NCBI RefSeq assembly: GCF_002259605.1
Contig: NZ_MWWR01000007.1
Location: forward strand, 62,001 to 126,000
Source: Pseudoscardovia radai
GTDB lineage: Bacteria; Actinomycetota; Actinomycetes; Actinomycetales; Bifidobacteriaceae
Direction: 5' to 3'
DNA: 64,000 bases
The notes below the pieces were generated by a model, which was not told the DNA's origin, ran no database searches, and was given only the letters and a program-made list of their open reading frames with translations. Within the stretch, counting starts at the first letter, position 1, and every line of letters starts with the position of its first letter. Both the position numbers and the translations under genes were made by a program. Shown in pieces: positions 8,556 through 48,766 of the stretch.

Positions 8556-8571
8556 GGTGCCCCGGATGCGA
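8556..8571. other. attL, left attachment site of the element
   Basis: GGTGCCCCGGATGCGA is repeated exactly at 48692-48707 inside the 3' end of tRNA-Arg(CCT). The integrase gene starts 213 bp to the right. The repeat is the longest identity at this position, so the crossover lies within it. Confidence 0.85.
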
Positions 8572-8703
8572 GAACAACATTCAAACGGACTGAATGGTGT
8601 TCTTGCATTGCAAATGCTTGTCATGTGTGTTTATTTCAAAGATATGCTCTCATCCGTAAGGCACTGACCATCACAGGCTAAGGTATCAAATTAGGTATCA
8701 CAG

Positions 8704-8731
8704 AAGCTGCGCCGGAAAGCGCAGCTTTTTT
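8704..8731. terminator. Rho-independent terminator
   Basis: AAGCTGCGC / GCGCAGCTT with a six-base loop, followed by a T-run to 8731. It lies between attL and the integrase gene, where it would stop rightward transcription entering from the chromosome. Confidence 0.85.
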
Positions 8732-8783: not shown

Positions 8784-9962
8784 ATGAGGATGCAATGGGG
8801 CACCGTGTTCCCCCGGAAGAACAGAGAAGGAAAGGTATCAAGTTGGGTGGCCCGGTACACGTCGCCGCTCGACCACAGCAAGAAGATCTCGAAGTCGTTC
8901 CCCATCGGACAGAAGGCGCTTGCCTACCAATGGCTCGAGGAGGAGCACGCCCTGGTCGACAGGGCCGAGATGGGACTGGCCCGGTGGACTCCGCCCAGCG
9001 AGAGGGTCGAGAGGGAGCATGGCCCCACATTCGAGGAATACGCAAACCAGTGGATCCGTGAATACAGGCTCGCCGACGGACGTCGGGCCGAGGGGGCAAC
9101 GCGGCGCAACCTCGAGGCGGACGTCTCGCACCTCATCCGCGCCTTCGGCGGCATGGAGATTGGCAAGATCAGGCGCAAGGAACTGCGCGACTGGTACGAC
9201 GCGGAGCACCCCGAAGGCCCTCACTCCTTCCACCGCCAGTGCGCGCGCATGAAGCGCATCCTCAAAGCCGCCGAGGACGGCAGCGTCGGCGAATGGGGCA
9301 AGCTCATCCAGAAATCCCCGTGGTCCTTCCGACTCCCGCCATTGCCGGAATCAGGCCGCGAAGACGTCGAGCCCGTCACACCGGCGGAACTGAAGAAGCT
9401 GTACCACGCCATGCCCTGCTACGACAGGCTCATCGTGTACATCGCGGCCGTCGTGGGCGGCCTGCGCATCGGAGAAGCATGCGCCTTGCGCAAAAGCGAC
9501 ATCGACCTCGACCGCCTCGAGATGCACGTCGCCCACTCGGTCAACAGAGGCAGCGACGACCTGGGTCCCAACGAACTGTGCCGCACCAAGACCAAGAAGA
9601 GCAACCGCGTCGTGCCCATCCCCGAGGTCATCGTCCCCTTCATCAGGGAGCACATCGGTCGCTGGTGCGACCCGGACGACCCCATGCTCTTCCAGGCGCG
9701 ACGAGCCGACATCCTCTCCCCCACAACCGTGCAGCAGCAGTTCCGCGCCGCCCGCAAAGCCGCGGGACGCACCGACATCACCTTCCACACCCTCAGGGCC
9801 ACCCACGCCACGATGCTCCTCATCTGCGGCGGAACCCTCCGCGAATGCATGGACGAGCTCGGTCACACGAGCGAGCGCATCGCCATCCAGCACTACCAGC
9901 GCATCGTCCCGGAACACCGCCGCCAGGCCGTGGAAAGAATGGCCGAGAGGATGATCGCGTAA
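8784..9962 (+). CDS. int: Tyrosine recombinase (integrase)
   Basis: 392 residues. Residues 1-60 resemble the arm-binding domain, residues 75-195 the SAM-like core-binding domain (FEEYANQWIREY...), and the rest the catalytic domain. Visible catalytic residues are Arg228 (in GGLRIGEACALR), Lys in KTKKSNR, the HTLRATH box near 335-341, His in ELGHTSE, and nucleophile Tyr371 in IQHYQRI. It should catalyse integration and excision of the roughly 40-kb element at the tRNA-Arg repeat next door. No separate small Xis gene is seen beside it. One of the small XRE proteins at the right end might serve that role. Confidence 0.95.
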   Translation: MRMQWGTVFPRKNREGKVSSWVARYTSPLDHSKKISKSFPIGQKALAYQWLEEEHALVDRAEMGLARWTPPSERVEREHGPTFEEYANQWIREYRLADGRRAEGATRRNLEADVSHLIRAFGGMEIGKIRRKELRDWYDAEHPEGPHSFHRQCARMKRILKAAEDGSVGEWGKLIQKSPWSFRLPPLPESGREDVEPVTPAELKKLYHAMPCYDRLIVYIAAVVGGLRIGEACALRKSDIDLDRLEMHVAHSVNRGSDDLGPNELCRTKTKKSNRVVPIPEVIVPFIREHIGRWCDPDDPMLFQARRADILSPTTVQQQFRAARKAAGRTDITFHTLRATHATMLLICGGTLRECMDELGHTSERIAIQHYQRIVPEHRRQAVERMAERMIA

Positions 9963-18089: not shown

Positions 18090-18460
18090 GCTGGCGCGAC
18101 GGCCGCAGCCGGCCCGTGGTGCGCAAGGTCTACTTCACGGAGCAGGAATGGGGCAAGGCCTGCGCCCTGTGGCGCGCGGGCGGAGGGCACCGGACGTTCT
18201 CCGCACATGCGCGGGAGCTGCTCATGTGGGGCTCCGTGCGCCGCGTCGTCATCCCCGCCGACACCGACCGCCTCGCGCATGAGGTCGCCAGAATCGGCGT
18301 GAACGTCAACCAGGTGGCGCACCGCGTGAACGCGCGGGGTCATCGGGAGCCCGGCGACGTGCAGGAGATGGAGTCGCTGCTGCGCGAGGCCGTCGGAATC
18401 CTCTCACGCATCTGCAAGGACGCGCAGGACAGGATCGATGGCTCAGGATGGCAGTCGTGA
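18086..18460 (+). CDS. mobC: MobC-like relaxosome accessory protein
   Basis: 124 residues from ATG 18086. The RKVYFTEQEWGKACALWRAG segment and the IGVNVNQVAHRVNARG motif are characteristic of bacterial mobilisation proteins of the MobC type. These carry a ribbon-helix-helix-like DNA-binding part and help the relaxase melt oriT. A C-terminal helix follows. The start overlaps the preceding small ORF (ATGA) and the end overlaps the relaxase start by 13 bp. The start at 18005 seen in the longer frame lacks a ribosome-binding site and would run through the upstream gene. Confidence 0.85.
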   Translation: MSWRDGRSRPVVRKVYFTEQEWGKACALWRAGGGHRTFSAHARELLMWGSVRRVVIPADTDRLAHEVARIGVNVNQVAHRVNARGHREPGDVQEMESLLREAVGILSRICKDAQDRIDGSGWQS

Positions 18461-19884
18461 AGATGGGCAAGGTCAAGGCCACGCTGAACCTGTCCGTGCG
18501 CTACATCGTCAACGGAGCGAAGACACAGGGCGGCCAGCTCGTGACAGCGTCGTGGAACCCCGGCGAGGGCGACCCCGAGAAGCTCGCCCGGCAGATGCTC
18601 GACACGCTCGCGCATGGCAGGAACGCGCCACGCAAGGGCTCGGTGCTCGCCTACCACGTCATCCAGAGCTTCAGCCCCGACGACCCTGTGACGCCCGAAC
18701 GGGCGCACTCCCTGGGCGTGGAGCTCATGGAACGCATCGCGCCGGGACACCGGTTCGTCATCGCCACGCACACCGACCGCGAGCACATCCACAACCACGT
18801 CATCCTATGCCCGACCGACCCGGCGACCGGACGGCACATGCGCCTGACACGCCGTTCGATCCTTCAGTGGCGCGACGTGTCCGACGATCTGTGCCGCAGG
18901 GAGGGGCTGAGCGTCATAGAACGCTCCATCGAACGGCGCCATGGCTGCAGCTTCGCCGAAATCTACGCCAGCGCGAAAGGCGTCGGCGTCAAGTCGTCCA
19001 TGCGCCAAGCAATCGACATCGCCGCGCAGAACGCGCGCGACTTCCCCACCTTCGCCGCCCTGTTGGGCGCGGCGGGCATGCGCGTCACGGTGCGCGGCCA
19101 GCACATCGTGTACGAGGACGCGGCAAGCGGACTCAGGGTGCGCGACTCGCGCCTGGGGATGGCATACATGCAGGACACGGTGATGGCACGCATGGGCCGG
19201 TGCGCCGTGAGCCAGATCAGCTTCGACACGTCGATGATCAGGGAGCAGGGCGACGGGCATGCCGTCGTGTGGCTGCCGGGCACGCGGCGCCGCCAGTGCA
19301 TCAGCGTGCCCATGCGGTGCGTCATCAAGGACGGGCGCACATGGCGCGCGTTCCTGCCGACGAACGAACCGCAGACCGTGCTGTCGAAGGACGGCGCGTA
19401 CCTGTGCACCGTGGCGACGGAAGACCTGTATGCGCATTTCAAACGCCCCGAGGCGCTGCTCGAACGCATGGCGGCGGACTCATGGCGGACGATTCCCGCA
19501 GGCCGCACCGAGGCAGAGCGTGAGGCGTGGATGCGGCAGGCGAGGAAGCTCGACAGGCTGCGCGACGACGTGCGCGGACTCGACACCGCGATCCGCGCGA
19601 CTGACGGCAGCAGCCCTCTGGCTGACGCGATGGAGGGGCTCGAAGATGACATCCGCCGTGCGCGCGCCGGGCTGCAGGCGCAGCTCATAGCCAACGACGA
19701 GTGCATCGCCGAGGGGCGTCCGCCCGACGCGGACGGCCTCGCCGCGCTCGAATCGCGCGAACGCGAGATTGAGGCGATGCAACGGGATCTGGGCGACCTG
19801 AGGCGGGCGCACGCGCGCCATGCCGGGACGCCCCATAAGGAAACACAAGCCCGCCGGGCGGGAGGAAAGGACAGGACAAGATGA
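18448..19884 (+). CDS. Relaxase (MobA/VirD2-like nuclease)
   Basis: 478 residues. The N-terminal 230 residues form the relaxase/mobilisation nuclease domain, with the metal-binding HUH-type motif HTDREHIHNH near residue 108 and the candidate nucleophile Tyr19 in the LSVRYIVNGAK segment. The C-terminal half is helical and charged (coiled coil around 350-450). It should nick oriT, stay covalently bound to the 5' end and pilot the strand to the VirD4 coupling protein. It overlaps mobC upstream and the next gene by ATGA, so translation is coupled. Confidence 0.93.
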   Translation: MAVVKMGKVKATLNLSVRYIVNGAKTQGGQLVTASWNPGEGDPEKLARQMLDTLAHGRNAPRKGSVLAYHVIQSFSPDDPVTPERAHSLGVELMERIAPGHRFVIATHTDREHIHNHVILCPTDPATGRHMRLTRRSILQWRDVSDDLCRREGLSVIERSIERRHGCSFAEIYASAKGVGVKSSMRQAIDIAAQNARDFPTFAALLGAAGMRVTVRGQHIVYEDAASGLRVRDSRLGMAYMQDTVMARMGRCAVSQISFDTSMIREQGDGHAVVWLPGTRRRQCISVPMRCVIKDGRTWRAFLPTNEPQTVLSKDGAYLCTVATEDLYAHFKRPEALLERMAADSWRTIPAGRTEAEREAWMRQARKLDRLRDDVRGLDTAIRATDGSSPLADAMEGLEDDIRRARAGLQAQLIANDECIAEGRPPDADGLAALESREREIEAMQRDLGDLRRAHARHAGTPHKETQARRAGGKDRTR

Positions 19885-20972: not shown

Positions 20973-21361
20973 GCGGGCGGGACGGCGCCGTGGAGGAAGG
21001 CACGGCCGCCGCGCGGAACGGAAGCACGCCGGAAGCGCCGGCGATAGACGAGCGCCGGGACGGCGACACGATCTTCGTGTTCGGCCACGTCACCGGCGTC
21101 CCGCGCATCGTCACGCTACGCGACGGAAGCCGCCTGTGGGTCGCCGCAGTGACGCCCGAGGGCGCACAGGACTCCGTCGAGCTGCGGGCGTCCGGGCGAA
21201 CCGCCGAGTACCTCATCGACCGAGATCCCGGCGACGGTGGCCGCATCTTCGCCGTGGGACTCGCCAGGCACGACGCCCGCCAGCCCGAGGACGTCGGCTG
21301 GTACGTGGCGCTCCAGGCGGCCGCCACCGGCACGTCGGCGGATTGGCGCGGGCAAGGATGA
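20969..21361 (+). CDS. Hypothetical protein of the mobilisation operon
   Basis: 130 residues. After a disordered start (1-30) comes a compact beta-rich domain (DTIFVFGHVTGVPRIVTLRDG...GWYVALQAAA). No signal peptide or membrane span is visible. It overlaps its upstream and downstream neighbours by ATGA, so it is translated with the relaxase and coupling protein. Function is unknown. Confidence 0.65.
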   Translation: MSGRDGAVEEGTAAARNGSTPEAPAIDERRDGDTIFVFGHVTGVPRIVTLRDGSRLWVAAVTPEGAQDSVELRASGRTAEYLIDRDPGDGGRIFAVGLARHDARQPEDVGWYVALQAAATGTSADWRGQG

Positions 21362-21759
21362 CCCGCAGTCCCGACATGATCGTGACGGCCGACCCGGACG
21401 GCATCGACGCCGGGTCGGCCGGCGCGGTGCGCATCGTCGGCACCGGAACGGGACTGGGCCGCCTCGTCGCCGCCATGTGCGGAGGCGAGGCGGCCATCCG
21501 CTGGCACGACGCTCCCCTCGTGCGCATCCGCCCCGCCGCCACGCAGAGCACAACGCGACCCACGCAGCCGACTCAGCCCACGGCACCACCATCGGGAACC
21601 CGCCCCAGGACTGCGGCGCAGTTCCTCGACGCCATCCGGCACGTCGCCACCAAACGCCGCGCCTCCGCCGACGGCGGGAGCGCGGACGAATGCGCCAATG
21701 GAGGCATACGCCGTGCAAACGACACCCGCAACAGCCGCGAAGGGAAGACACGAGAATGA
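21358..21759 (+). CDS. Hypothetical protein of the mobilisation operon
   Basis: 133 residues starting at the ATG that overlaps the previous stop. Residues 1-60 look beta-rich (MIVTADPDGIDAGSAGAVRI), followed by a Pro/Thr/Gln linker and a basic C-terminal helix (TAAQFLDAIRHVATKRRA). The same C-terminal motif, ADILDAVRR, occurs at the end of the 19881 protein, suggesting a shared docking helix. It overlaps the VirD4 gene by ATGA. No family is recognised. Confidence 0.6.
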   Translation: MTRSPDMIVTADPDGIDAGSAGAVRIVGTGTGLGRLVAAMCGGEAAIRWHDAPLVRIRPAATQSTTRPTQPTQPTAPPSGTRPRTAAQFLDAIRHVATKRRASADGGSADECANGGIRRANDTRNSREGKTRE

Positions 21760-23579
21760 AGACCCGAGCCGAATCGACCAAGGGAGCCAACAAGACACCC
21801 GCCATCGTCATGACGGCGCTTGCCTGCCTCGCGGCATGGTGGGTGTTCGACCTCACCGCAGCCCAGATCCGAACCGACCATGAATCCGGCGCGGACATGG
21901 GCTACATCGTGGAGCACATGTTCGACCGTCTTGAGAACGCGCCGTTCAGCCCCAGCTTCGCCAAGGCGGACGCTGCGTGGGGCTTCGCCGGAATCGCGCT
22001 CGTCGCGCTGTTCCTGCTCTACCGGTGGGCAAGCCGCAAGAAGATGCGCGACGGCGAGGAGAACGGGTCGGCCGAATGGGGCTCCCGCAAAGACATCGCC
22101 ACGTTCGTCGACAAGACGTCCGCACGGAACCTGCTCATGACGCGCACCGAGCGTCTCTCGCTCGACACCCGCAAGACGCTCAGGAACCTCAACGCTCTCG
22201 TCATCGGCTCGTCCGGCTCGGGCAAAACCAGGTACTACATCATGCCCAACATGCGGCAGATGAGCATGAACTACGTCGTCACCGACCCCAAGGGCGAGCT
22301 GTGCGCCGAGATGCGCAGGCCGCTGGAGGACGCGGGGTACATGGTTCACGCGCTCGACCTGAAGTCCATGTCGCACTCCGGCCATTTCAACCCCCTGCGC
22401 TACATCGACGCGGAGCACCCCGAGAAATCCATCCGCGAGCTCACGGAGAACATCATCGTCAACACCACCGCGGAGAACGCTCGGGACGACAGCTTCTGGG
22501 GCGCGGCGGAGCGCACGCTGCTCACCGCGCTCATCGCCTGGGTGTACTTTACCCGCTGGCACGCGGACGGCTGGGACGACGAAACCGGCATCGGGGCACA
22601 CGAGCCGAGCCTCAACGACGTGACCGACCTCCTGGAGCTCATGGACGCCTACGAGAAGGACGACACGAGCAAGAGCCCCGTGGACATCCTCATGGAATCC
22701 GCGCAGGACGTGTATGACAAGGCCGCCGAATCGGAATGGGCCGGATGCGACGACGATGCCAGGCGCGTGCTGGAGGGCATACGGTTCGCCCTGCGCTGCT
22801 ACCGGCGCTACAGTCAGGGCGCAGGGGAAACGAAGAAAAGCATCATCATCTCCCTCGGCGTCCGGCTCAGCCCGCTGAGCATCCACGAGGTGCGCGAGAT
22901 CCTCGCCGATGACACCATCCACATTGACGAGCTTGACGCCGGCAAGAGCGCGGTGTTCCTCATATTGTCCGACACCGACGCCACGTTCAACTTCCTCGCC
23001 GCCGTGTTCTACCAGTGTCTCTTCCAGACCACCGTCAGGCAGGCCGACGCCAACCCCGAGCAACGTCTGAACCGCGAGATGCACTGCTTCCTTGACGAGT
23101 TCGCCAACATCGGCAAAATCCCAGCCTTCCCGACACTCATCGCCACCATTCGCTCACGCGGCATCTCGGCCAGCATCGTGGTGCAGAACCTCGCCCAGCT
23201 CAAGGCGCTGTACAAGGAGCAGTGGGAGACCATCGCCGGAAACTGCGATTCCACGCTGTTCCTCGGTGGCAACGAGGAGACCACCACGAAGTGGATCAGC
23301 GACCGCCTGGGCAAACAGACCATCGACACCCGCACCACCAGCCAGTCCAAAGGACAGACCGGCGGATTCACCATCAATTACCAGCGCACGGGGCGAGAGC
23401 TCATGACCCCGGACGAACTCGGCGTCATCCCCAGCGACGAATGCGTGTACCTGCTACGCGGCGTGGCGCCGTTCTTGTCGAGGAAGATCGGCGGGGACGA
23501 AGGGTGTGGAAGGTCGATAGAGCGCAGTAGGGCGATTCGCAGCGATGCGCCAACGACGCGTTTCACCCAGCAGGAATAG
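21756..23579 (+). CDS. VirD4/TraG-type coupling protein
   Basis: 607 residues from ATG 21756. Two N-terminal membrane spans (about 15-35 and 70-90) precede the ATPase. Walker A GSSGSGKT lies near residue 151 and the Walker B/Q-loop stretch FLDEFANIGKIP near 445. The protein should pump the relaxosome into the mating channel. Homology to the family appears to stop at LLRGVAPFLSRK. The last 30 residues (from IGGDEGCGRSIE) look foreign, and AT-richer cargo starts immediately after. The original tail may have been replaced at this junction. Confidence 0.92.
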   Translation: MKTRAESTKGANKTPAIVMTALACLAAWWVFDLTAAQIRTDHESGADMGYIVEHMFDRLENAPFSPSFAKADAAWGFAGIALVALFLLYRWASRKKMRDGEENGSAEWGSRKDIATFVDKTSARNLLMTRTERLSLDTRKTLRNLNALVIGSSGSGKTRYYIMPNMRQMSMNYVVTDPKGELCAEMRRPLEDAGYMVHALDLKSMSHSGHFNPLRYIDAEHPEKSIRELTENIIVNTTAENARDDSFWGAAERTLLTALIAWVYFTRWHADGWDDETGIGAHEPSLNDVTDLLELMDAYEKDDTSKSPVDILMESAQDVYDKAAESEWAGCDDDARRVLEGIRFALRCYRRYSQGAGETKKSIIISLGVRLSPLSIHEVREILADDTIHIDELDAGKSAVFLILSDTDATFNFLAAVFYQCLFQTTVRQADANPEQRLNREMHCFLDEFANIGKIPAFPTLIATIRSRGISASIVVQNLAQLKALYKEQWETIAGNCDSTLFLGGNEETTTKWISDRLGKQTIDTRTTSQSKGQTGGFTINYQRTGRELMTPDELGVIPSDECVYLLRGVAPFLSRKIGGDEGCGRSIERSRAIRSDAPTTRFTQQE

Positions 23580-34021: not shown

Positions 34022-35569
34022 TCACCCCGCCTGACTCTTCTCCCGCTCCTTCATACTCGCGTTCACGTCATCCATCGCCCCCTGCAAGTCTGACTCCATC
34101 GTTTCAAGACGGCTGAGATCATAAGAACCAGAGTCCACCAACGCCCGCGCCTCATTGATGCGGTCGGTCAGCGTCTGGCGCACCTCGTTGTCCTGGGTTT
34201 TGCCGTCGGAATCCGAGAGCAGCTGCCGGGCTGTGGTGAGCTTGTCGCTGACTCGTTTCCTTGCGTCGTTGCCCAGCTTCTTCTGCCGGGACTCGCGCAC
34301 AGCCGCGGCATCCGCGTCGATGAGCTGCGCCTGGCTCAGGTACTTGCCCGAGGCCGCGCTCCATTCCGCGGCCAGACTCTTGCTGTCTTCCGGCTCGTCA
34401 TGCTCGTTGCACGCGGCCGGATCCGTCAGCGGCCAGTTGTAATCATCCTTGAGCTTCTTCAACACGTCGGCGTCCTCGACATCGGAATCCCTGTAACCGA
34501 TTACGTCCGCCGCGTTATCCTTCGCCGTCTGCCATGCCTCGCGGTTGGGCGCGGCGCCGTCCTGCGCCGCCTGGCACATGCAGTACGAGTCCCAGCGGTC
34601 CTGTTCCCTGCCGCCGATGAACGACGGCAGCCATGAGATGATGCTCATGATGAGCCCCACCACCACACCCACGATGGCGACGATGCCCATCATGGGCGCA
34701 GCAGCCGCAATCATCGACGCCACGGCCGCTGCGACCTTCGCGGCGATGGCCCGCACCATCTGGGCGGCTTTCGCGGCCGCCCTCATTGTCGCCCGCGCAG
34801 CCTTGGGCGCATTCTTCATGGTTTGCGCGACCTTCCGCGCGTTCTTGGCTCCATGGAAAGCAGTGCGTCCCAGTCTCACGGCACCGTCAGGTGCTTTCAG
34901 CAGCATATCGGTCGCCTGTGCCGCGGCCTGGGCGGTGGAATCGTCTCCCGCCATGCGCGACATGACGCCCCCGGCACCGCCCGCGGCTCCCTTATACGCT
35001 CCAGGGATGCCTTTCGTAGCGCTGAACCTGAAACCTTTGACCGCGCCCTTCCTCGCAAATTTCGCACCATTCTTGGCAATAGCCTTCGGCGCCTTCCTGA
35101 TTCCGACCTTGCCCTTCCTCGCAAGAGAGCGAATCTTTCCCCGCCCGGCGTTCTTGACGGTCGACCCGAGCTTGCCTTGCTTCTTGAGAGCCTTCGCTCG
35201 TTTGGCAGCATCGGAGGCCTTCTTGGCTCCGGCTTTGGCCGCCTTGGCGCCCTTGACCGTCGCTTTCGAAGCAGACACCGCTGCTTTCGACACACGAACA
35301 CCACCCTTGACCGCAGCGGCACTGGACTTGGTCGCGCCACGCGCACCGGAGGCAAACGTCGATAGATGCTTCGACGCCTGGTCTTCCTCATCCCCGCCCG
35401 AGACGCGGCCCATGCGTGAATACACGCTTGATACCGCGCCAACCGGCGAGGAACCTTCGCTGCGACGCTTCTTCACGCCCTTCGCATTCATGCTTTTGCC
35501 TGTCTGCGCAGACGCGGATGACGCCAGACCTTTCGAGGAAGCAGAACGGTGGCTGGTGCTCTTCGTCAT
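34022..35569 (-). CDS. Conjugation membrane/coiled-coil protein, possibly truncated
   Basis: 515 residues. The N-terminal 270 residues are Lys/Ala/Gly-rich and basic. One strong membrane segment (MMGIVAIVGVVVGLIMSIIS, about 285-315) is followed by a roughly 170-residue helical/coiled-coil domain. Position after VirB4 and the basic N-terminus resemble CD1108-type proteins of Gram-positive conjugative elements, which normally end in lysozyme and NlpC/P60 cell-wall hydrolases. No such domain is present here, and AT-richer cargo starts just downstream. Start ATG 35569 is five bases after GGAG and overlaps the VirB4 stop. Confidence 0.65.
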   Translation of the reverse strand: MTKSTSHRSASSKGLASSASAQTGKSMNAKGVKKRRSEGSSPVGAVSSVYSRMGRVSGGDEEDQASKHLSTFASGARGATKSSAAAVKGGVRVSKAAVSASKATVKGAKAAKAGAKKASDAAKRAKALKKQGKLGSTVKNAGRGKIRSLARKGKVGIRKAPKAIAKNGAKFARKGAVKGFRFSATKGIPGAYKGAAGGAGGVMSRMAGDDSTAQAAAQATDMLLKAPDGAVRLGRTAFHGAKNARKVAQTMKNAPKAARATMRAAAKAAQMVRAIAAKVAAAVASMIAAAAPMMGIVAIVGVVVGLIMSIISWLPSFIGGREQDRWDSYCMCQAAQDGAAPNREAWQTAKDNAADVIGYRDSDVEDADVLKKLKDDYNWPLTDPAACNEHDEPEDSKSLAAEWSAASGKYLSQAQLIDADAAAVRESRQKKLGNDARKRVSDKLTTARQLLSDSDGKTQDNEVRQTLTDRINEARALVDSGSYDLSRLETMESDLQGAMDDVNASMKEREKSQAG

Positions 35570-38187
35570 CATTCTCCGAATTTCGTGCTGTACAGCTTGT
35601 AGAGCGGGTTGTCTGTACGGATGCGCCCATCGAGCGGAATGTACGCCGCCCCGGACTTGAGCAGGCCCTGACCGGACTGGACGCCGGTGAAGAACGCGCG
35701 CTGTTCTGCGGAGAGTCGCAGCAGGTCGCACAGGCTGTCGGCGTCCGTGGAGTTCTGGTTCATGAGCAGCAGGAAGTCCGCGTTGGCGAGCATGAGGCGC
35801 GCGTCATCGTTGATGAGCAGCTCCTCGATGTTCTGCGTGATACCGGTCACTCCCAAGCCCCACTTTCGCGCCCTCTTGAAGATGTCGAGGAAGGTCTTCG
35901 AGGCGTACGGGTTGCTGAAGAACCGGTGGAACTCGTCGGCGTACAGCCACGTGCGGCGCCTCTGCCTGCGGTTGCGGATCACTCGGTTCCACACCTGGTC
36001 GAGCACCACCATCATGCCGAACGTCTTCATCTCGCCGTCCAGACCGTTGACGTCGAACACCACGAACCGGTTGTCGAGGCTCACGTTCGTGCGCCCGGCG
36101 AAACCAGCCGACGATCCCTCCGTGTACTGGCCCAGGGCGAGGGCGAGCCTGTGCCCCTCCGGCTCACCGGTGGCCTCCAGCGCGGCGGCGAGGTCCACCA
36201 GCGTGGGTGTCGTGAACTCCGGCGCATTGACGCGCGCCCGGTACAGGTCAAGCGCCACGCGATCCATGAGGCTCTTCTCGATGGGGTCCAGGCCGTCCGA
36301 ACCGCCCAGAAGCGCGGAGAGCATGGCGATGAGCGCGCTGGTCTTCTGGCGCAGCGGGTCGCCCTCGTCACTGCCCAGCTCCACGTCCATGGGGTTGATG
36401 TGCTGGTCGGAGTCCGCGGCGATGCGTATCGCCTGCCCGCCGAAGCGCTCACACAGCGCGCCGTACTCGTGCTCCGGGTCGATGATCACGATGTCGTCGT
36501 CGGAGCCCAGGAAGATGTTCGTCATCTCCGACTTGGCCGACGCCGACTTGCCGGAACCGGTGGTTCCGAGGATGAACCCGTTCTGGTTCATGCGCAGACG
36601 CCGGTCCACCACGAGCGGGTTGCCGGACTGCGCGTTCGTGCCGTAGAACACGCCCGACGGCTCGAACACCTCCTGCGTGGTGAACGGGATCAGGATCGCG
36701 GCGGAGTTCGTGGTCAGCGTGCGGCTCATGGGCAGCGGCTGCACGCCCAGCGGCAGCTCGGCCTGCAGTCCCTCAATCTGCATGTAGTCCAGCGACTCCG
36801 GCACGCACGACAGGCGCCGGCACGCGGCCGTCACGTCCTTCACGTGCTGGTCGAGCAGCGCCTTGTCATCGTCCGATACGCCGATCACCACGATGGAATC
36901 CAGCAGGCGCTCGTTGGAACGTTGCAGGGAGTCGAGCAATTCGTCCGCCTGCTCCTTGGCATCGGCCAGGTCGTGGGGCATCTGGTCCTCGGGCATGTTC
37001 TGCTTGATGTTCTTCCGTCGCTGGCTCATGACCTGCATGTCGAGCTCGGCCACGGTGCGCTTGACGAGTTCGAGGCCGTCGCCACGGTCGTAGGGTTTGA
37101 GATGGATGGCAACGTTGATGTTCGCCTTGATGCCGCTGAGCTCGGAAACAAGCTGGTCGGTGAGCTCGGGCGGGTATTCGCGGATCCACAGCGTGCGGTG
37201 GTAGGTCTCGCGTTGCCCCGAGACAAGCGTGAGCATGCGCTTGTCCTTGGTATCGATGGCCCACGGGCAGCAGTAATCCTTGGTCGCGAGTTTCGATGCG
37301 GCGAAGCTCCGCTCATCGAATCCGGATTCCTCGCCGGGGCGCAGGTACTTGGCGAGCAGGTCGAGACGCTGCACACGGTCCATACGTCGCGCCACGCATC
37401 CGTCAAGGCCGTGGAGCTGGCTCGTCGCATCGAGGGCGATGCGGTTGAGCGTGAGCATGGCACGCTCGGGATCCGGCTCGGTGATGGCGATTGTCACGAA
37501 TTTGTCGGTGCGCGTGTTGCTTGCCAGACCGGAGAGCTTGTCATGCTGGATCTGGTTCTCGGCCTGGCGCAGGTCGTCGTACCCATCGTCTCTGGTACGC
37601 ATGGCGATTTGCTCGGTGATGGCGGACGAATCCAGGATGCGCGTCATGATTCCGATCTGCACTGTGGATCCCTCGCCGAAGTTGTTGAGCCACTTGGCCC
37701 AGCCGTCGAGGATCTGCATCTGGTGTTCCTCGGGGCTGATCTGGTAGTTGACGTCGCTGATGGACATCGTGATGCTCCACCGGTCGTCGCCCAGATAGCA
37801 AGCGCCAGATTCCGCCATGGATTCGTAGGGAATCATCTGCTTGGCGGTTTTGAAAGACGATGAGCTTTTCTTGCGCTTTGTGTCCGCTTTCTTAGCCTTT
37901 TCGGCTTTCTTGGCGGCCTTTCGATGTCCTCTGCTCGCCTTCTTCTCCCCTCTCGGCTCCGGCTGCGTTTCCGCTGCAGGAGCTGCGACAGGAACCGCCG
38001 CTAGGCCTGCCGTCTGCAGCGGAATCCGCATGGGCGTGGGCGTTGCCGCCGACATGGGCATCTTCATCGGCATTGCGTCCTGCATCTGCGCCTGCATTGC
38101 TTCCTGGGTTTGCACGGGCATCTGGCCGGATGCGTATCCGGGTGCCTGCCCGGGAGTCTGGGTGGGCATGATGGGTGCCGTGGTCAC
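35569..38187 (-). CDS. VirB4/TraE-type conjugation ATPase
   Basis: 872 residues from GTG 38187, which overlaps the PrgI stop (GTGA). The N-terminal 110 residues are a Met/Pro/Gln/Ala-rich extension, followed by a Lys-rich stretch. The TraC/VirB4 domain carries Walker A LGTTGSGKSASAKSEM near residue 540 and Walker B WLYADEFHRF near 745. It should power assembly of the transfer channel and work with VirD4. The longer open frame to 38490 lies inside prgI and is not used. Confidence 0.93.
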   Translation of the reverse strand: MTTAPIMPTQTPGQAPGYASGQMPVQTQEAMQAQMQDAMPMKMPMSAATPTPMRIPLQTAGLAAVPVAAPAAETQPEPRGEKKASRGHRKAAKKAEKAKKADTKRKKSSSSFKTAKQMIPYESMAESGACYLGDDRWSITMSISDVNYQISPEEHQMQILDGWAKWLNNFGEGSTVQIGIMTRILDSSAITEQIAMRTRDDGYDDLRQAENQIQHDKLSGLASNTRTDKFVTIAITEPDPERAMLTLNRIALDATSQLHGLDGCVARRMDRVQRLDLLAKYLRPGEESGFDERSFAASKLATKDYCCPWAIDTKDKRMLTLVSGQRETYHRTLWIREYPPELTDQLVSELSGIKANINVAIHLKPYDRGDGLELVKRTVAELDMQVMSQRRKNIKQNMPEDQMPHDLADAKEQADELLDSLQRSNERLLDSIVVIGVSDDDKALLDQHVKDVTAACRRLSCVPESLDYMQIEGLQAELPLGVQPLPMSRTLTTNSAAILIPFTTQEVFEPSGVFYGTNAQSGNPLVVDRRLRMNQNGFILGTTGSGKSASAKSEMTNIFLGSDDDIVIIDPEHEYGALCERFGGQAIRIAADSDQHINPMDVELGSDEGDPLRQKTSALIAMLSALLGGSDGLDPIEKSLMDRVALDLYRARVNAPEFTTPTLVDLAAALEATGEPEGHRLALALGQYTEGSSAGFAGRTNVSLDNRFVVFDVNGLDGEMKTFGMMVVLDQVWNRVIRNRRQRRRTWLYADEFHRFFSNPYASKTFLDIFKRARKWGLGVTGITQNIEELLINDDARLMLANADFLLLMNQNSTDADSLCDLLRLSAEQRAFFTGVQSGQGLLKSGAAYIPLDGRIRTDNPLYKLYSTKFGE

Positions 38188-38543
38188 AGTGCGTTCTTTC
38201 CTTTCTCCTTGTATGCCATCTTCTTGTTCGCTGTCTGGCGTGGCTTCTTGCCATCGAGTAGGTACACGGATTGCCCGGCGACATGGCGCAGAACATAGCG
38301 TGCGTAGACCTCCGGTTTGAGCCCCTGCGGACGCCACCATCCGTAGGCGGCTATCGGCGTGCATACGGCGAAGACCGCATACATGCCCACGTCCGGCTGT
38401 TTGAGGAGGAAGTAGAAAACGGCCCACAGTCCGCCTCCGGACAGTACGATGATGGCTGCGGCGAGCATCTGCCGCCATGTCAGGCCCCACATGACCTTTG
38501 GCTCAAGCGTGTTGATTTCCTTGTAGACGTGCATCTGGAGCAC
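38184..38543 (-). CDS. PrgI-family protein
   Basis: 119 residues if started at GTG 38543 (AAAGGG upstream) or 116 from ATG 38534. The opening VYKEINTLEPKVMWGLTWRQ is diagnostic for PrgI/TcpE-like VirB3 counterparts. Two membrane spans follow (about 25-45 and 50-70), then a cytosolic tail ending with basic residues. It is the inner-membrane partner of VirB4 and is translationally coupled to it. An upstream ATG at 38627 would overlap the VirB6 gene and is unlikely. Confidence 0.85.
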   Translation of the reverse strand: MLQMHVYKEINTLEPKVMWGLTWRQMLAAAIIVLSGGGLWAVFYFLLKQPDVGMYAVFAVCTPIAAYGWWRPQGLKPEVYARYVLRHVAGQSVYLLDGKKPRQTANKKMAYKEKGKNAL

Positions 38544-38595: not shown

Positions 38596-39429
38596 TCACT
38601 CCCCGACGAGTGCCTTCGCGGCGCCATTGGATAGGCCGATCATGCCCAGGAGGAGCACGCTGGCCATCAGGAAGTCGCCGAGGTTGCCAATGCACCATCC
38701 GGCGATGCTGGAGCCGTCGTAGGAGGCGATGGAGAACGTCGACATGAACGAGCGGTAGATCCACACGCCGATGAACAGCGTCACCGCCTTCACGCATGTG
38801 GAGGCGTACTTCTTGAAGTACCCGATGGCCATGGGCTTCGTCTCGTCCGTGCCGAGGAAGGCGATGGGAAGCGAGTTGAAGGCCGTAAGCAGATACAGTT
38901 CGAAGAAACGCAGCAGCACGATGACGTGGAACGCCAATTGGGCGCATTTCGCGGCAAGGAACGGGAAGACGAGAATCAGCATGGCGCCCGCCTGCCCCAT
39001 GTAGTCATGGCTGTCAATCTGGTCGCGTATACCATCGCCAAGGTTCGTCGCCGCAGACGTGCCTGCGGGCATGGCGTCGGTGATGCCAGTGAAAATCGTG
39101 GTAGTGATTTCGTTGATGGCGTCAAGGAACAGCTTCGCGTTCTGCGCCGCGACCAAAAGCAGCGCGATTTTGAACATGGCGGCGGCGACGATCTTCACAC
39201 CGAGCTGGCGATCCCCGTCGATGCGGGTGGAGACCTTCGCCAGCTCCAGCGTGAAGATGATGGAGAGTATGACCGCCGCGACTGGCTTGACCGCGACGTC
39301 ATTGACGTTGAGGGCGAACTGATAGACGGTTTCGTTGTACTCCGCCGGTGTGTTCCCGAGGAGGTTGACCGTGCCGTCGTCGACGCCGCCGCCCAACGCG
39401 TTGAGCATCGCGACTATCCAGTCGATCAA
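38596..39429 (-). CDS. VirB6/TrbL-like membrane channel protein
   Basis: 277 residues with five or six membrane spans (about 45-65, 82-105, 145-170, 175-200, 215-235, 248-268) and a Gly/Asp-rich extracellular loop around 115-140. Size, topology and position between a VirB2-like gene and prgI identify it as the polytopic channel component. The start is TTG 39429, seven bases after GGGAGG. The nearby ATG is out of frame. Confidence 0.85.
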   Translation of the reverse strand: MIDWIVAMLNALGGGVDDGTVNLLGNTPAEYNETVYQFALNVNDVAVKPVAAVILSIIFTLELAKVSTRIDGDRQLGVKIVAAAMFKIALLLVAAQNAKLFLDAINEITTTIFTGITDAMPAGTSAATNLGDGIRDQIDSHDYMGQAGAMLILVFPFLAAKCAQLAFHVIVLLRFFELYLLTAFNSLPIAFLGTDETKPMAIGYFKKYASTCVKAVTLFIGVWIYRSFMSTFSIASYDGSSIAGWCIGNLGDFLMASVLLLGMIGLSNGAAKALVGE

Positions 39430-40814: not shown

Positions 40815-40876
40815 TGCCATCTCCTTTCATTGTTTTCGGCATGGGGCCGGACCGATTGATAGGAAAATAGCAGACT

Positions 40877-40913
40877 ACGGAATTGCCGCACAAGGGGTTG
40901 TGCACAATTCCGT
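40877..40913. promoter_or_regulatory. Inverted repeat between XRE and CoiA-like genes
   Basis: ACGGAATTG...GCACAA and TTGTGC...CAATTCCGT form an imperfect 16-bp stem with a one-base bulge. It lies 60 bp upstream of the XRE gene and 280 bp before the divergent CoiA-like gene. It may be an operator for the XRE protein. The remaining gap to 41193 holds no clear gene. Confidence 0.5.
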
Positions 40914-41193
40914 CCCACGAAGGGACTTTTCGTTCAGCCACACCGACCGAAACGGCTTCATTGCAACGCTTTGCACTTGCCCAACAGTGGAATATTCCAC
41001 CCGAAATGTGGACAGGCGCAGCATGGCTCTGCGAAGCGCCCGCCAAACGCGAGCTTCCATTCCCTCTGCACGCGTTCCGAGGCTTTCCGGAGAACCGGAT
41101 TGATCGCACCGAGCGCATCGGCACATTCGATCTGGACTTCGGACTTCAGAGTAAAATGTTCGGAAATCATTGGAATTCTGTTGGGGGCAACAT

Positions 41194-42726: not shown

Positions 42727-42773
42727 CCGCATCGCCCAGCATGGCTCTGGAGGCCAAACGCCGACGATGACAC

Positions 42774-44440: not shown

Positions 44441-44487
44441 GGATGCCTCCTTCCCGGGACATGGTCCCCGTCCATTTCGCGCGCCCC

Positions 44488-44880
44488 TCAGACGAAGAGC
44501 GCCGCTTCCTCGATCAGCCCGCAGGCCTCGTGCAGAGCCCTCGCCTGCATCATCACCAGGTCGATGTGGGGATGGCTTCCCTCACGCCAGGATTCGAAGC
44601 GGCGGGAAGTCAGGTACCGGCGGGCGATGTCTTCCTCGTCCGCCAGCGCCCTGCCCGACGCCGAGTACTCGTGCCAGTCCCGCGAACCGTCGAGGAGAGT
44701 CCGTCGGATGTCGCCGACCAGAACGCGTTCGTCGGGGAACCGTTCGAGCAATTCGAGCGCGGCACGGAGCACGCCCCTGCGCCAAATGCCGCGCGGGCGT
44801 TCGCGCGTCGCGATGAGTCCGGCCACGTCGCCCAGGTTCGCCAGAGAGCCCCGGCGTCCGGGGAATTCGAGAACCGTCAT
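44488..44880 (-). CDS. Hypothetical helical protein
   Basis: 130 residues from ATG 44880, four bases after GGAGG. The protein is Arg/Leu-rich and helical, with the motif ERPRGIWRRGVLRAALELLE. Its hydrophobic-face spacing suggests a DNA-associated or oligomeric helical protein. It is placed directly upstream of the double-HTH pair and is probably transcribed with it. A short AT-rich gap (44881-44943) with AGTATATATT-like sequence may hold their promoter. No family is recognised. Confidence 0.65.
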   Translation of the reverse strand: MTVLEFPGRRGSLANLGDVAGLIATRERPRGIWRRGVLRAALELLERFPDERVLVGDIRRTLLDGSRDWHEYSASGRALADEEDIARRYLTSRRFESWREGSHPHIDLVMMQARALHEACGLIEEAALFV

Positions 44881-44943
44881 CGAACCTCCAGTGTGCAACC
44901 GGTCATATTGACAGTTTTATAGTATATATTCACGGTCTGCTTT

Positions 44944-45567
44944 TCAAGTCCTTTCGCGCCATTCTTCGATATCCCGCTGGTGGTCCCGCATCGCCCGATA
45001 GCATTCAAGCGTCGCCAGCGCGTCCTCGTACGCGTCATGCTTGGGCATGTATTCACCACGTCCGAAATACTCTGCGCACTGTCTCAGCGATGGGAAACCC
45101 TTGCGGGATTCATACCCGCACAGAGGGAGCATCCGCGCCGCCTCCACCATCACGTCCGTGACCGACGCCCGCCATGTCACTCCGCGCCTGAACAACGCAG
45201 CAAGCTGGAAATACGCGTTGTACCCCACGATGTGGTTGCAACACCTAAGCGTCATGGCGATGTCGGGAACGCAACGGAACATGTGCTCGCAGCCCGCGAC
45301 TGCGGCGGGGCCGATACCCGTCAGGGCCTCCGCCTCAGGCCATTCCTTGGCCTCGACGGGACGGAAGAGCATGTCCAGCATCGGCGTGCCGTTGCGGTCG
45401 AGGGACACAAGCCGCAGCACCTCGGCGCGGATGGGGTCAGGGCCGGTCAGAGTCATGCCGATGACCTGATAATCCCCACCGTCATCTGTGTCGGGCGGAA
45501 GGATGTACTCCGCTTCATGCGGCAGCAATAGCGGCCGAGCCCAATCCTCGTACGTGAATCTCGTCAT
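44944..45567 (-). CDS. DnaQ-fold protein lacking catalytic acids
   Basis: 207 residues from ATG 45567, six bases after AAGGAGG. The fold order is that of DEDDh 3'-5' exonucleases: the strand that normally ends DxETTG reads VIGMTLTG (Asp to Gly, Glu to Thr), Exo II reads VGYNAYFQL (Asp to Gln), and Exo III keeps HDAYEDA. Three of the metal-binding acids are therefore missing, and the enzyme is probably inactive, acting as a nucleic-acid-binding or regulatory scaffold. It overlaps the WhiB gene by ATGA. Confidence 0.75.
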   Translation of the reverse strand: MTRFTYEDWARPLLLPHEAEYILPPDTDDGGDYQVIGMTLTGPDPIRAEVLRLVSLDRNGTPMLDMLFRPVEAKEWPEAEALTGIGPAAVAGCEHMFRCVPDIAMTLRCCNHIVGYNAYFQLAALFRRGVTWRASVTDVMVEAARMLPLCGYESRKGFPSLRQCAEYFGRGEYMPKHDAYEDALATLECYRAMRDHQRDIEEWRERT

Positions 45568-46061
45568 GACGTCCTCCTTGTCTCCGTTGTGCCGTCGCCT
45601 CCCGGTTCCGTCACCGTCAGATTCTCGGCATCGGATGACTCGGCGGGTGTTGCCGCGTCGCACACCTCCTGTTCCTTGCGGCGGCGGCGCGATTTCCTTT
45701 TCTCTTCGCTGTCCTTGGCTTTCGCCCTGTCGATGGCGTCGGGATTGGTGCGGATCCATCCAGCGAGGGCGGCGACACGCGTTGCGTGCAGTCCTTCACC
45801 AGACACCTTGTACAATTTCGCGTCCCGTGCCAGATGCAGGCGGATGCGACGGTTGACGCCTCCCCAGATTCCCGCCGTCTCCTCGTAGACGATGGCGGTG
45901 GCGAGGCATTCGGGCCGCACAGGGCAGCCTTCGCAGATCTTCCTGCCCTTGGTACATTCCACCGACGCTCCCGCGTTGCGGTTGAGGTTCCACATCTTGT
46001 CCTTCTGCTCGGCCGGGTACTCGGAGCACCGGGCGTGCTGCGTCCAGTCCCAGGAGTTCAT
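45564..46061 (-). CDS. WhiB-family transcription factor
   Basis: 165 residues. Cys12, Cys43, Cys46 and Cys52 (in CEGCPVRPEC) provide the [4Fe-4S] ligands, with an additional Cys36. GIWGG is the usual WhiB turn, followed by basic residues for DNA binding. The spacing Cys12-Cys43 is longer than typical, and the Lys/Arg-rich tail is extended. WhiB proteins are actinobacterial, redox- or NO-sensitive regulators. Several mobile elements carry their own copy. It is coupled to the DnaQ-like gene and overlaps the upstream gene by 4 bp. Confidence 0.88.
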   Translation of the reverse strand: MNSWDWTQHARCSEYPAEQKDKMWNLNRNAGASVECTKGRKICEGCPVRPECLATAIVYEETAGIWGGVNRRIRLHLARDAKLYKVSGEGLHATRVAALAGWIRTNPDAIDRAKAKDSEEKRKSRRRRKEQEVCDAATPAESSDAENLTVTEPGGDGTTETRRTS

Positions 46062-47503
46062 GCCGTTCCTTCCTTCCGTGCATCCCTGATTCGCGCCATG
46101 TCACCGTGATGGTCACGGTTGTGCGCGTCCGACGCGCACACCGGGCATTCGCCCGGGTCCACCTCGTCGTAACAGTGCTGGTAGAGCTTGCCGAGGTTCG
46201 ATGGTTCAAGCCACTGCTCACCCCAGTACACGGCATGCCCCTCGGAATATGCGCGGGTTAGCTGGCGGTGCGGCGCGTACGACGCGGCGACCACCGGGGA
46301 GACGCCCGGCGCCGATTCGCGCGTCACGCCAGGCGATATCCGCCCGAACCGGATGGTGCCCTGCCCCTGCCGCGATCTCGGCGAGGTGATGTCCTGTCTC
46401 AGCGCAGCCCAGTCGGACGCCAGCGAACGAAGGGTCAGCACGCGGGCACGGTGGAAATCGTGAGACAGGGCCCACACGACCGCCGAGAGGATGTCGTCGA
46501 CGGCCTGGTCGGGGTCACGCCCGGCCTCGGTGAGCGTCGAGATCAGCCACGAGGCGTTGCCGACCTCTCGCCTCGGCCAGGTGCGCGGCGCCAGGCCGCG
46601 TTCCCCGATGAGGCGATGGTGCTCGGCCACCAGACGGCGAGAGGCGCGGAGGACGCGCTCCCCCGGCGCGGCATCGGTTGCACCGGCCGGGACTCCGGCA
46701 ACGGCGTACGATGTTCCGCCGGCGGCAGCCGGCGCATGGGCGGCAGCAGGTGCGACGATGGGTTCAGCCGCGCCGTCGGAACCGGGAGCCCCGATGCCAC
46801 CGGAGGGTTCCTCGGGCACGAATTCGCCGTAGGGGTCAGAGCGCAGCCCGTCGTCGAAGGCGTCGAGGAGACAGAGTGAATCGGCAACGGGGGAAGCAGT
46901 CGAGGCTTCGCCGCGACCGTCTCCGTCGCGGCTCCCCCCGGCGCGGTTCTTCCCATCGTGATTTCCTTCGACGGGGGGCAATCCCCCTTTAGGGGGATTA
47001 TGGGGGGAATTGAGAGAGTTATTTAGTTCATATTGTGCGACATCCGTGTCGTAGCTGCTACGACATCCTGTCGCGGCGGAATCGGTGCTACGACAATTTG
47101 TCGTATCTGTTTTTTGGCTTGTTCCCTTGCCTCTCGCCATCGCGGTCTTTTGGGGCTTCGTAGCGGCCGGCATTGCCTTGGCACCCGCGCCGACGGCATC
47201 TGGCCCGGGTTCGGGGCCGTCGACGTCCAGGTCCCACACGATGGGGCGGGTCTGGGCCGGATACCGCGAGACATAGCTCTGGTCGCCGCGTCGGATGATG
47301 CCCGCCGATTCCATCCACGCGAGTTCGCGCTGGACTGTGCGCAGGCTCAGGTCCATCCGTTCGGCGATGGAACGGGCACTGGGGAACGCATGCAGGCCGT
47401 GGTCGTCCGGGGTCGCGTCGGCCAAGGCCATGAGCACGCAGCGGCATGTGCACGACCTGACGCGGTGGGTCCCCATCGCCCACCACAGGACACGTATGCT
47501 CAT
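46058..47503 (-). CDS. Winged-helix replication- or partition-type protein
   Basis: 481 residues from ATG 47503 (GGGAGG five bases before). Residues 20-85 form a winged helix (SIAERMDLSLRTVQRELAWMESAGIIRR). A long Gly/Ala/Pro/Ser linker follows (about 95-280), then a helical domain (LVAEHHRLIGERGLAPRTWPRREVGN, and later DQAVDDILSAVVWALSHDFH). The layout is common for proteins of actinobacterial plasmids and conjugative elements annotated as HTH or replication initiator-like. A catalytic Rep motif is not visible, so a role in replication is unproven. Confidence 0.65.
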   Translation of the reverse strand: MSIRVLWWAMGTHRVRSCTCRCVLMALADATPDDHGLHAFPSARSIAERMDLSLRTVQRELAWMESAGIIRRGDQSYVSRYPAQTRPIVWDLDVDGPEPGPDAVGAGAKAMPAATKPQKTAMARGKGTSQKTDTTNCRSTDSAATGCRSSYDTDVAQYELNNSLNSPHNPPKGGLPPVEGNHDGKNRAGGSRDGDGRGEASTASPVADSLCLLDAFDDGLRSDPYGEFVPEEPSGGIGAPGSDGAAEPIVAPAAAHAPAAAGGTSYAVAGVPAGATDAAPGERVLRASRRLVAEHHRLIGERGLAPRTWPRREVGNASWLISTLTEAGRDPDQAVDDILSAVVWALSHDFHRARVLTLRSLASDWAALRQDITSPRSRQGQGTIRFGRISPGVTRESAPGVSPVVAASYAPHRQLTRAYSEGHAVYWGEQWLEPSNLGKLYQHCYDEVDPGECPVCASDAHNRDHHGDMARIRDARKEGTA

Positions 47504-47789
47504 CGCGACCTCCCCCGGGCGCTCCCAGCCGGATGGCGGAGCATGGACAGACGCAACATGAGTCCCTCGGGCAGGGGGCATGCGGGCGTCTCCCCCGCCT
47601 CGGGGGAACGTTCGGTAGAATGAGACTGTCTGCAAAGACTGCCGACCGGTCTAGTCATCTCCTGGTCGTGCATTGGATTGCTTTCCATAGGTTCTCCTAT
47701 CACCATCGAATCTGTGGAGTGATCCAAGGGGTCCTTGGAATGGAAATGAGGAAATGAGTGCCAAGGACCCCTCTTCAGTTTTCACGCCG

Positions 47790-48008
47790 TCAGTCGCCGG
47801 CGTTCACGGAATCCGAAGGCGGGGACTCGATGCCGAGGACGAAATCCGCCGACAATCCGTATCTTTCGTGCAGAAAGCGCAAATCCCGCGGCTGCCAGGC
47901 GATCTGCCCGTTGACTTTCCCCGAGATGTTGGCCTTGGACTGTCCGGAGCCCTCGGCGAGCTCCCGATAGCTCACGCCATGCGCCGCAAGCCATTCCTTC
48001 AAATTCAA
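47790..48008 (-). CDS. Small XRE-type repressor
   Basis: Seventy-two residues, almost all HTH (WLAAHGVSYRELAEGSGQSKANISGKVNG). The proposed start is TTG 48008, with GGAG eight bases before. It is divergent from the larger XRE gene at 48207, and two direct repeats lie between them. The pair forms a Cro/CI-like arrangement at the element's right end. Confidence 0.75.
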   Translation of the reverse strand: MNLKEWLAAHGVSYRELAEGSGQSKANISGKVNGQIAWQPRDLRFLHERYGLSADFVLGIESPPSDSVNAGD

Positions 48009-48026
48009 AGTTCAGACTCCTTTCAC

Positions 48027-48078
48027 ATCGTTCATTCTGACTGATTTGTACATATACAATATCGTTCAATTTGACAGA
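48027..48078. promoter_or_regulatory. Divergent operator region with direct repeats
   Basis: ATCGTTCATTCTGACTGA (48027-48044) and ATCGTTCAATTTGACAGA (48061-48078) are 34 bp apart, about three helical turns, in the gap between the two divergent XRE genes. They are probably the binding sites for one or both regulators. Confidence 0.7.
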
Positions 48079-48100
48079 ACACAAATTCGTTCGTTAGAAT
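48071..48100 (+). promoter_or_regulatory. Promoter of the terminal XRE gene
   Basis: TTGACA (48071-48076), 18-bp spacer, TAGAAT (48095-48100). The -35 lies within the second direct-repeat operator, so bound repressor would block it. Confidence 0.65.
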
Positions 48101-48206
48101 TCCCTATATCAGCAATGAATTCTGCGCCACGGATTCCGATGACACGGACACCCAGCGCCCAGGATTCCCGCGACACGAATCTCGACAACATGGATCGGAG
48201 GTAGAT

Positions 48207-48755
48207 GTGACCGGCGTCATCCCCACCGACGAGGTGGAAGAGAGCACGGTGCGCTACGAACGCGTCGTCGCCTTCAACATCCGCCAGCGCCTCACGGCAC
48301 AGCACCGCTCCCAGCGCGAGCTGGCCGACTTCATGGGACTGCAGACATCCGCCGTCTCCATGAAGATGACTGGCAAGACCACATGGTCCCTGGCCGACAT
48401 GGTCAAGGCAGCCGCCTTCCTCGGCGTGTCCCTCGACGACCTGACCGACGACACCATCATGGTCTCCATGGGGGCCGCCCCCACCAAGGAGGAGCTCGAG
48501 AAGGCCATCGAGACGGACGCCCGCGAGAAGGCCCGGCGCGCCGAAAGGCGGGCCGCTGCCGCCACCGCGGGCGGCGACGCCGCCGCGCCCGCGATCGTCA
48601 CGGCACGCGCCGCGGAAAAGAAAACCGCGGACGCGCCTGCAGGCGGTCCGCGGTTCATCGTGATGCCGGACGGCATGCCCGGCACCGGAACGGTGCCCCG
48701 GATGCGATTCGAACGCACGACACCCGCTTTAGGAGAGCGGTGCTCTATCCCCTGA
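48207..48755 (+). CDS. Terminal XRE regulator, 3' end formed by the tRNA gene
   Basis: 182 residues from GTG 48207 (GGAGG five bases upstream). Residues 14-70 hold an XRE HTH (FNIRQRLTAQHRSQRELADFMGLQ). An Ala/Arg-rich helix and linker follow. The reading frame passes through attR. Codon 167 is the last shared one, and the final 15 residues (FERTTPALGERCSIP) are antisense tRNA-Arg sequence. After excision the frame would instead continue past attL for 31 codons to a stop at 8665-8667, adding a tail that contains the hydrophobic run GVLALQMLVMCVYF. It is probably the main regulator of integration or transfer. Confidence 0.8.
   Translation: MTGVIPTDEVEESTVRYERVVAFNIRQRLTAQHRSQRELADFMGLQTSAVSMKMTGKTTWSLADMVKAAAFLGVSLDDLTDDTIMVSMGAAPTKEELEKAIETDAREKARRAERRAAAATAGGDAAAPAIVTARAAEKKTADAPAGGPRFIVMPDGMPGTGTVPRMRFERTTPALGERCSIP
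48615..48655 (-). terminator. tRNA-Arg terminator carried by the element
   Basis: AACCGCGGAC / GTCCGCGGTT stem followed on the minus strand by TTTTCTTTT. It lies 39 bp beyond the tRNA 3' end and replaces the displaced chromosomal terminator at 8471-8515. It also lies inside the coding sequence of the XRE gene on the other strand. Confidence 0.75.
48692..48707. other. attR, right attachment site of the element
   Basis: GGTGCCCCGGATGCGA, identical to attL at 8556-8571, covers the acceptor-stem 3' strand and part of the T-arm of tRNA-Arg. Because the repeat reconstructs the tRNA end, integration leaves the tRNA intact. Confidence 0.85.
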
Positions 48756-48766
48756 GCTACCGGGGC
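48694..48766 (-). tRNA. tRNA-Arg (anticodon CCT)
   Basis: A 73-nt cloverleaf: acceptor GCCCCGG / CCGGGGC with discriminator A, D-arm with TAGCTCAGGGGATAGAGCA, anticodon loop CTCCTAA (anticodon CCT, reading AGG), T-arm GTGCG-TTCGAAT-CGCAT. No CCA is encoded (ACCG follows). Its 3' end is the integration target. Confidence 0.95.

Follow-up and report, generated by a model that had tools for sequence, protein, structure and literature searches.

Integration-dependent immunity has been described for mycobacteriophage BPs and for clusters G, I, N and P (Broussard 2013, per PMC4557955 and PMC9635641). BPs-type systems have a short integrase and no arm-type sites (PMC9635641, PMC6109161). The same layout is also found in M. 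abscessus prophages (PMC8092301), and the B. breve prophages Bb423phi2 and 689b-1 carry a predicted C-terminal switch (Mavrich 2018, PMC6109161).

How integrative conjugative elements (ICEs) hold their transfer genes silent until excision is a long-standing question. Transcription that depends on circularisation is known from ICEs such as ICEclc and Tn916. In the literature searched, in which coverage of subscription papers was limited, we found no ICE described whose attP lies within a gene for a repressor, which does not prove absence. Here we analyse a stretch of 64,000 nucleotides from Pseudoscardovia radai (contig NZ_MWWR01000007.1, positions 62,001 to 126,000; hereafter the window), in which an XRE regulator gene reads across the attachment site of an integrated element.

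The element and its gene content

Judged by its genes, the element in the window is a 40-kb ICE and not a phage, because genes for a relaxase, a type IV coupling protein (T4CP), VirB4 and VirB6 are present (Table 1). A phage reading was rejected on account of these conjugation genes. Integrase, relaxase, coupling protein and T4SS ATPase all lie between direct repeats at a tRNA gene. Similarity to the small divergent HTH_26 gene was seen in four of the genomes considered below (G044, G061, G065 and G066). Positions 28716-31505 hold cargo, namely a MvaI/BcnI-type restriction endonuclease gene beside one for a C5 cytosine methylase that carries an HTH domain.

Near relatives of the element sit at the same tRNA in G172 and at a non-tRNA site in G115, which argues for past mobility. 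In G115 (L056, L057) the ends of this window-type element are on separate contigs, the left near acyltransferase and glycerol-3-phosphate dehydrogenase-like genes and the right by one of HAD-hydrolase type. G171, from the same genus, and G115, from another, both have close XRE relatives; with the XRE 5′ end deleted these are remnants and were rejected for a full-gene test. Both (L053, L056) contain a near-identical junction that joins window position 34526 to 48266 at a TCGCC microhomology, with ~13.7 kb including the VirB4 and VirB6 genes missing.

Table 1. Features of the window, and circular-form tails read in related elements (coordinates are window positions)
Feature	Coordinates	Strand	Details
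attL core	8556..8571	+	16-bp repeat
Circular-form XRE tail	8572..8667	+	31 codons + TGA; hydrophobic run GVLALQMLVMCVYF
Direct repeat AGGTATCA	8681..8700	+	copies 8681-8688 and 8693-8700; possible integrase arm sites
Terminator-like hairpin + T run	8702..8731	+	directly 3′ of circular-form stop; -22.8 kcal/mol, z -6.8
Tyrosine integrase (int)	8784..9962	+	392 aa, first gene after XRE in circle; Phage_integrase 7.3e-23, SAM-like N-terminal domain 1.1e-4
MobA/VirD2-like relaxase	18448..19884	+	3.1e-29
Type IV coupling protein (T4CP)	21237..23579	+	8.6e-59
VirB4-like conjugation ATPase	35569..38490	-	CD1110 family, 5.9e-261
TrbL/VirB6-like protein	38596..39429	-	
Replication-initiator-like gene	46058..47635	-	leftward module; phrog_1032 8.1e-15
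Small divergent HTH_26 gene	47790..48008	-	Cro-like position
XRE regulator gene, integrated form	48207..48755	+	182 aa; HTH residues 25-79; start GTG 48207, stop 48755
Hairpin + T run 3′ of tRNA	48612..48672	-	within XRE coding sequence; -29.7 kcal/mol, z -3.4
attR core	48692..48707	+	tRNA-Arg 3′ end; also final shared XRE codons
tRNA-Arg(CCT)	48692..48766	-	integration target, left whole by insertion
Tail, G065			tRNA-Leu; ...PAYLLLLYVMTITACMRISHKA; junction read by hand, frame confirmed in shuffle test
Tail, G041			tRNA-Leu; QILMILILLWLHLQFQKSGNHVETLEG
Tail, G061			tRNA-Leu; ...YIQVIIIIFIYFLHIQPKVIQSRHS
Tail, G066 and relatives			tRNA-Glu; ...AVLLLIVIFMRLMVETTCDE
Tail, G074/G054/G028			ppi (cyclophilin) class; ...MRMMLLLWDATL...
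Tail, G185			tRNA-Lys; RLILRFDVLLVLLIPSAHPLAPWTMIVAAIRGLSPPGFS
Tail, G044/G055			tRNA-Leu; ...VMVAAIAGILLCASSASEDAQISASFQN

Two predicted C-termini of the XRE regulator

In a profile search the XRE product matched HTH_3 (3.2e-7) and BetR (6.7e-8). Its GTG start is preceded by GGAGG (48197-48201) and by a promoter-like TTGACA-18-TAGAAT (48071-48100). The 16-bp core GGTGCCCCGGATGCGA occurs in exactly two copies in the window, those of attL and attR, with no extra flanking identity. The element boundary at attR is supported by G173, which is of the same genus and lacks the element, because its similarity to the tRNA stretch begins at window position 48693; ahead of this stretch G173 has different sequence, itself an XRE-like remnant.

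The preliminary description had the XRE gene reading through attR into antisense tRNA sequence, with codon 167 the last shared, and this was confirmed base for base. Residues 1-167 are common to both forms and residues 168-182, FERTTPALGERCSIP, come from antisense tRNA. Its second claim, that a circle would keep the frame open and add a hydrophobic tail, was reproduced by virtual joining of 48707 to 8572: the frame adds EQHSNGLNGVLALQMLVMCVYFKDMLSSVRH, 31 codons in all, before the TGA at 8665-8667, giving a predicted product of 198 aa vs 182 aa in the integrated form. The circular-form gene looks complete because a terminator-like hairpin follows its stop codon. As this hairpin, which was absent from the list of a simple terminator scan of the window, stands between the circular XRE stop and int, the latter probably needs its own expression signal. 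The left end of the element also contains inverted repeats, and a 33-base imperfect hairpin (8571-8603) lies inside the tail DNA.

The structure model of the window XRE protein comprises a helical HTH domain, a long helix and then ~45 low-confidence residues. The segment before the att site is modelled as disordered, which fits an exposed tail.

The DNA around the core may serve the tRNA as well. The hairpin at the 3′ side of tRNA-Arg is probably a replacement terminator, and opposite-strand hairpins with a T run after the tRNA 3′ end are also found in G061, G044 and G066; the element appears to restore a tRNA terminator besides the tRNA 3′ end. In the left flank (8471-8571), which includes a perfect 16-bp inverted repeat, one frame reads ADAPAGSPRFIVLPAG and resembles the XRE C-terminus. 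This weakened the candidate reading of the hairpin at 8471-8515 as a plain host tRNA terminator. The flank may be what is left of a related ICE that sat at tRNA-Arg earlier, and XRE remnants are present at att sites of G173 and G041 too.

Recurrence in related elements

Integrase relatives were listed across 189 Bifidobacteriaceae genomes and then paired with XRE matches; in every pair that could be tested we located the att repeat and read the circular junction in silico. Among 396 genomes sampled from the order, close integrase relatives were confined to Bifidobacteriaceae. Hydrophobicity played no part in the choice of the seven non-window classes, which rested on similarity of integrase and XRE, and integrases of the tested classes are 42-53% identical to that of the window. 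Integrase relatives without T4SS genes, mostly with the tRNA on the int side, were left out as not comparable (G067, G130, G142, G147, G099, G141 and G096), as were cases with no usable att repeat (G087, G080, G018, G033b, G051 and G054b). G151, where the XRE end is a remnant only, was not counted among the classes.

The resulting eight classes, the window's included, have the XRE gene at the end opposite int and crossing the attachment site, with tRNA-Arg, -Leu, -Glu, -Lys or a cyclophilin gene as target. Conjugation genes are present in 7/8, in the window's order in seven relatives (G065, G061, G044, G066, G185, G028 and G074); the similarity of G041 to the window element is limited to int and rep. 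A comparison with related elements had been proposed in the preliminary description, and the XRE frame proved to be open across the in-silico junction in every testable class (G065; G041; G061; G066/G086/G081; G074/G054/G028; G185; G044/G055; G030; G068). In the eight classes it continues into mutually dissimilar tails, strongly hydrophobic in seven. Because the classes share a related integrase, what recurs is the trait, not each event. Read from the element ends, two alternative XRE C-termini are specified, of which the circular one is recurrently hydrophobic.

In the ppi class the integrated XRE product is longer than the circular form, as a fusion with cyclophilin. The ICEs in G074, G054, G028 and G033 (L099, L101, L103 and L105) target a cyclophilin-type peptidyl-prolyl isomerase gene, inserting at its 5′ end, and when integrated encode an in-frame XRE-isomerase fusion of 356-364 aa.

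Several further loci are related. At L196 and L198 (G117, G109) and L197 (G139), too, XRE genes run into antisense tRNA sequence, of tRNA-Asn and tRNA-Arg; the left ends were not found there. G151 (L181-L183) has an ~8 kb element at tRNA-Arg with a mere remnant of the XRE C-terminus at its right end and, at its left end, again a long and very hydrophobic frame (ISILMVSFSFPSASNGLLRCYFIIRILFVVEVF...). At L117, L119 and L121 (G033, G051 and G054) the XRE gene lies ~15-16 kb from an integrase gene with no tRNA close by, and its long, fixed tail includes hydrophobic stretches; the frame is interrupted in the G033 copy, and these genes are possibly a domesticated relic. A search of viral contigs and plasmids gave no useful XRE relatives, and a PDB sequence search with XRE gave no match.

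Hydrophobicity of the tails and competing explanations

In the window alone, an open frame of at least 31 codons after the junction has P about 0.27 in dinucleotide shuffles, and therefore the open frame carries no weight by itself. The hydrophobic run is less common than the open frame (P 0.002 to 0.02 in shuffles, by the size of window used), and such runs occur at random positions of the window at a background rate of 3.9%. The tail frame is open in 3/3 window-type alleles (window, G115 and G172). As all five tail substitutions among these are nonsynonymous, the three alleles speak neither for nor against a coding role.

For all eight classes we compared the best hydrophobic stretch of 11 residues with dinucleotide shuffles of the left ends. 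Seven classes gave P 0.0007-0.0083 and the ppi class 0.07 (Fisher 1.4e-12 combined), and in 8/8 the cognate frame exceeded the other two in hydrophobicity. Open tail length by itself was not significant over the eight classes (Fisher 0.07). This ordinary length, together with the exclusively nonsynonymous changes in the window's alleles, is what would be expected of an overrun without function, in which the N-terminal part of XRE suffices, the frame merely crosses attP and the hydrophobicity is a by-product of T-rich recombinase-binding DNA beside the core; the inverted repeats of the left end are indeed likely binding places for recombination proteins. Such a by-product, however, does not account for hydrophobicity that is restricted to the cognate frame and exceeds composition-preserving shuffles. 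Moreover, G041 offers a natural wrong-frame control, because a remnant XRE gene of the G065 type abuts the same left end in another frame, and the resulting tail, DSHDSHPALAASAVPEERESR, is not hydrophobic. Two features of the proteins also argue against a dispensable C-terminus: a PR[FY][FIL]VxP-like motif recurs ahead of the core in several XRE proteins (window, G074, G066, G044 and G139), and between G074 and G054 the HTH domains are swapped with the C-terminal part constant. We consider an overrun without function unlikely.

Within the tRNA-Glu class the tail is retained in 16/16 genomes examined (11 alleles), with indels only 3′ of its stop codon. In G017 and G089 an unrelated 26-codon block of equal length has been swapped in and the hydrophobic end retained; outside the swapped block constraint on the tail is weak.

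A hydrophobic tail might sequester the circular-form XRE rather than lead to its degradation, by anchoring it in the membrane or aggregating it away from its operators. Nonpolar runs of ~14-16 residues near the C-terminus in several classes would suit this, yet for a membrane span most of them are on the short side, and no common pattern is seen in the charges that follow, which are basic in the window, G061 and G065 and acidic in G066; we regard sequestration as quite unlikely. That circularisation acts on transcription, by joining the XRE promoter to int with the protein tail secondary, is very unlikely, for although both genes are on one strand in all classes and 77-220 nt separate the tail stop from the int start in most, a strong terminator-like hairpin intervenes in the window and a ParA-like reading frame in G185, and the frame-matched hydrophobic tails would be left unexplained; such an effect can coexist with an integration-sensing regulator.

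Proposed mechanism

On balance we favour, as somewhat probable, the reading of XRE as an integration-state-sensing regulator, that is, BPs-type regulation in ICEs with a hydrophobic tail replacing the ssrA-like tag. This reading holds up because of the comparison across classes, the window frame alone being unremarkable by chance. The integrated XRE would be stable and would actively repress the divergent module of HTH26, replication and transfer genes. With the hydrophobic tail the circular form would be unstable, FtsH or Clp being candidate proteases, or would be inactive for some other reason. The replication and transfer genes would then be switched on by excision or on entry into a recipient, and off again once the element re-integrates. 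FtsH degrades proteins with nonpolar C-terminal tails, and an FtsH gene is present in the host genome. For Lon, partial Lon_C matches alone were found in this genome, which is incomplete, and a canonical Lon may be lacking or have escaped detection. C-terminal hydrophobic residues are reported to raise protein degradation in a bacterium (PMC7246954).

A wider proposal, to which we would give even chances, is that a family of Bifidobacteriaceae ICEs writes its integration state into the C-terminus of a master repressor through frame-matched hydrophobic degrons of unrelated sequence, licensing replication and transfer only when excised, and that in several classes the same ~100 bp acts as attP and tRNA replacement terminator. 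If true, the question of how ICEs are kept silent would have a direct answer in a repressor that recombination itself rewrites, and a switch known from phages would extend to conjugative elements of gut bifidobacteria. The putative hydrophobic-tail signal is testable with a few short constructs.

Comparison with known systems

The likeness to mycobacteriophage immunity drawn in the preliminary description stands in part. Its core, an attachment site in a repressor-like gene with a C-terminus predicted to switch to a hydrophobic tail on excision, gains strong support from the eight classes, whose tails are frame-matched (seven strongly hydrophobic); the phage carrier and the ssrA-like tail do not carry over, and the short integrase probably does not either. 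As in the BPs type, attP lies within the repressor frame (here in the virtual circle), repressor, attP and integrase follow in this order on one strand, a Cro-like gene is divergent, and the target is a tRNA. In the window the unintegrated form is again the longer at its C-terminus, which is not so in the ppi class. In contrast, the carrier is an ICE here and a temperate phage there, and the tail is hydrophobic rather than ssrA-like. The tails of the eight classes end in SVRH, SHKA, TLEG, SRHS, TCDE, PGFS, SFQN and FPEK, none of them ssrA-like, and that of the window lacks an LAA/AA end.

In phages, XRE relatives carry the annotation of immunity repressor and adjoin integrases. The repressors of phages IdentityCrisis and Bunker are weakly similar to XRE in the HTH domain, and both phages share the order of divergent HTH gene, repressor and integrase. 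Their repressors end in ELEAA and RPAAA, respectively, whereas the ICE tails are hydrophobic instead. The window integrase, with its SAM-like N-terminal domain, has 392 aa vs 290 aa in IdentityCrisis, and the AGGTATCA repeats near int are candidate arm sites.

The B. breve prophages Bb423phi2 and 689b-1 resemble the window element in their bifidobacterial host family, an integrase gene by attL, a repressor gene by attR and a tRNA target, but they are 18-kb prophages in tRNA-Met with predicted 18-residue ssrA-like tags, and not ICEs. In ICEclc and Tn916, as proposed here, ICE gene expression is tied to circularisation; there, however, promoters and transcripts are altered and not the C-terminus of a regulator.

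Taken together, the ICE of the window works, as read here, like a BPs system, yet we do not class it as one, since it has neither an ssrA-like tag nor a phage context. BPs-type switches are already known, whilst the ICE family and its hydrophobic tails look new.
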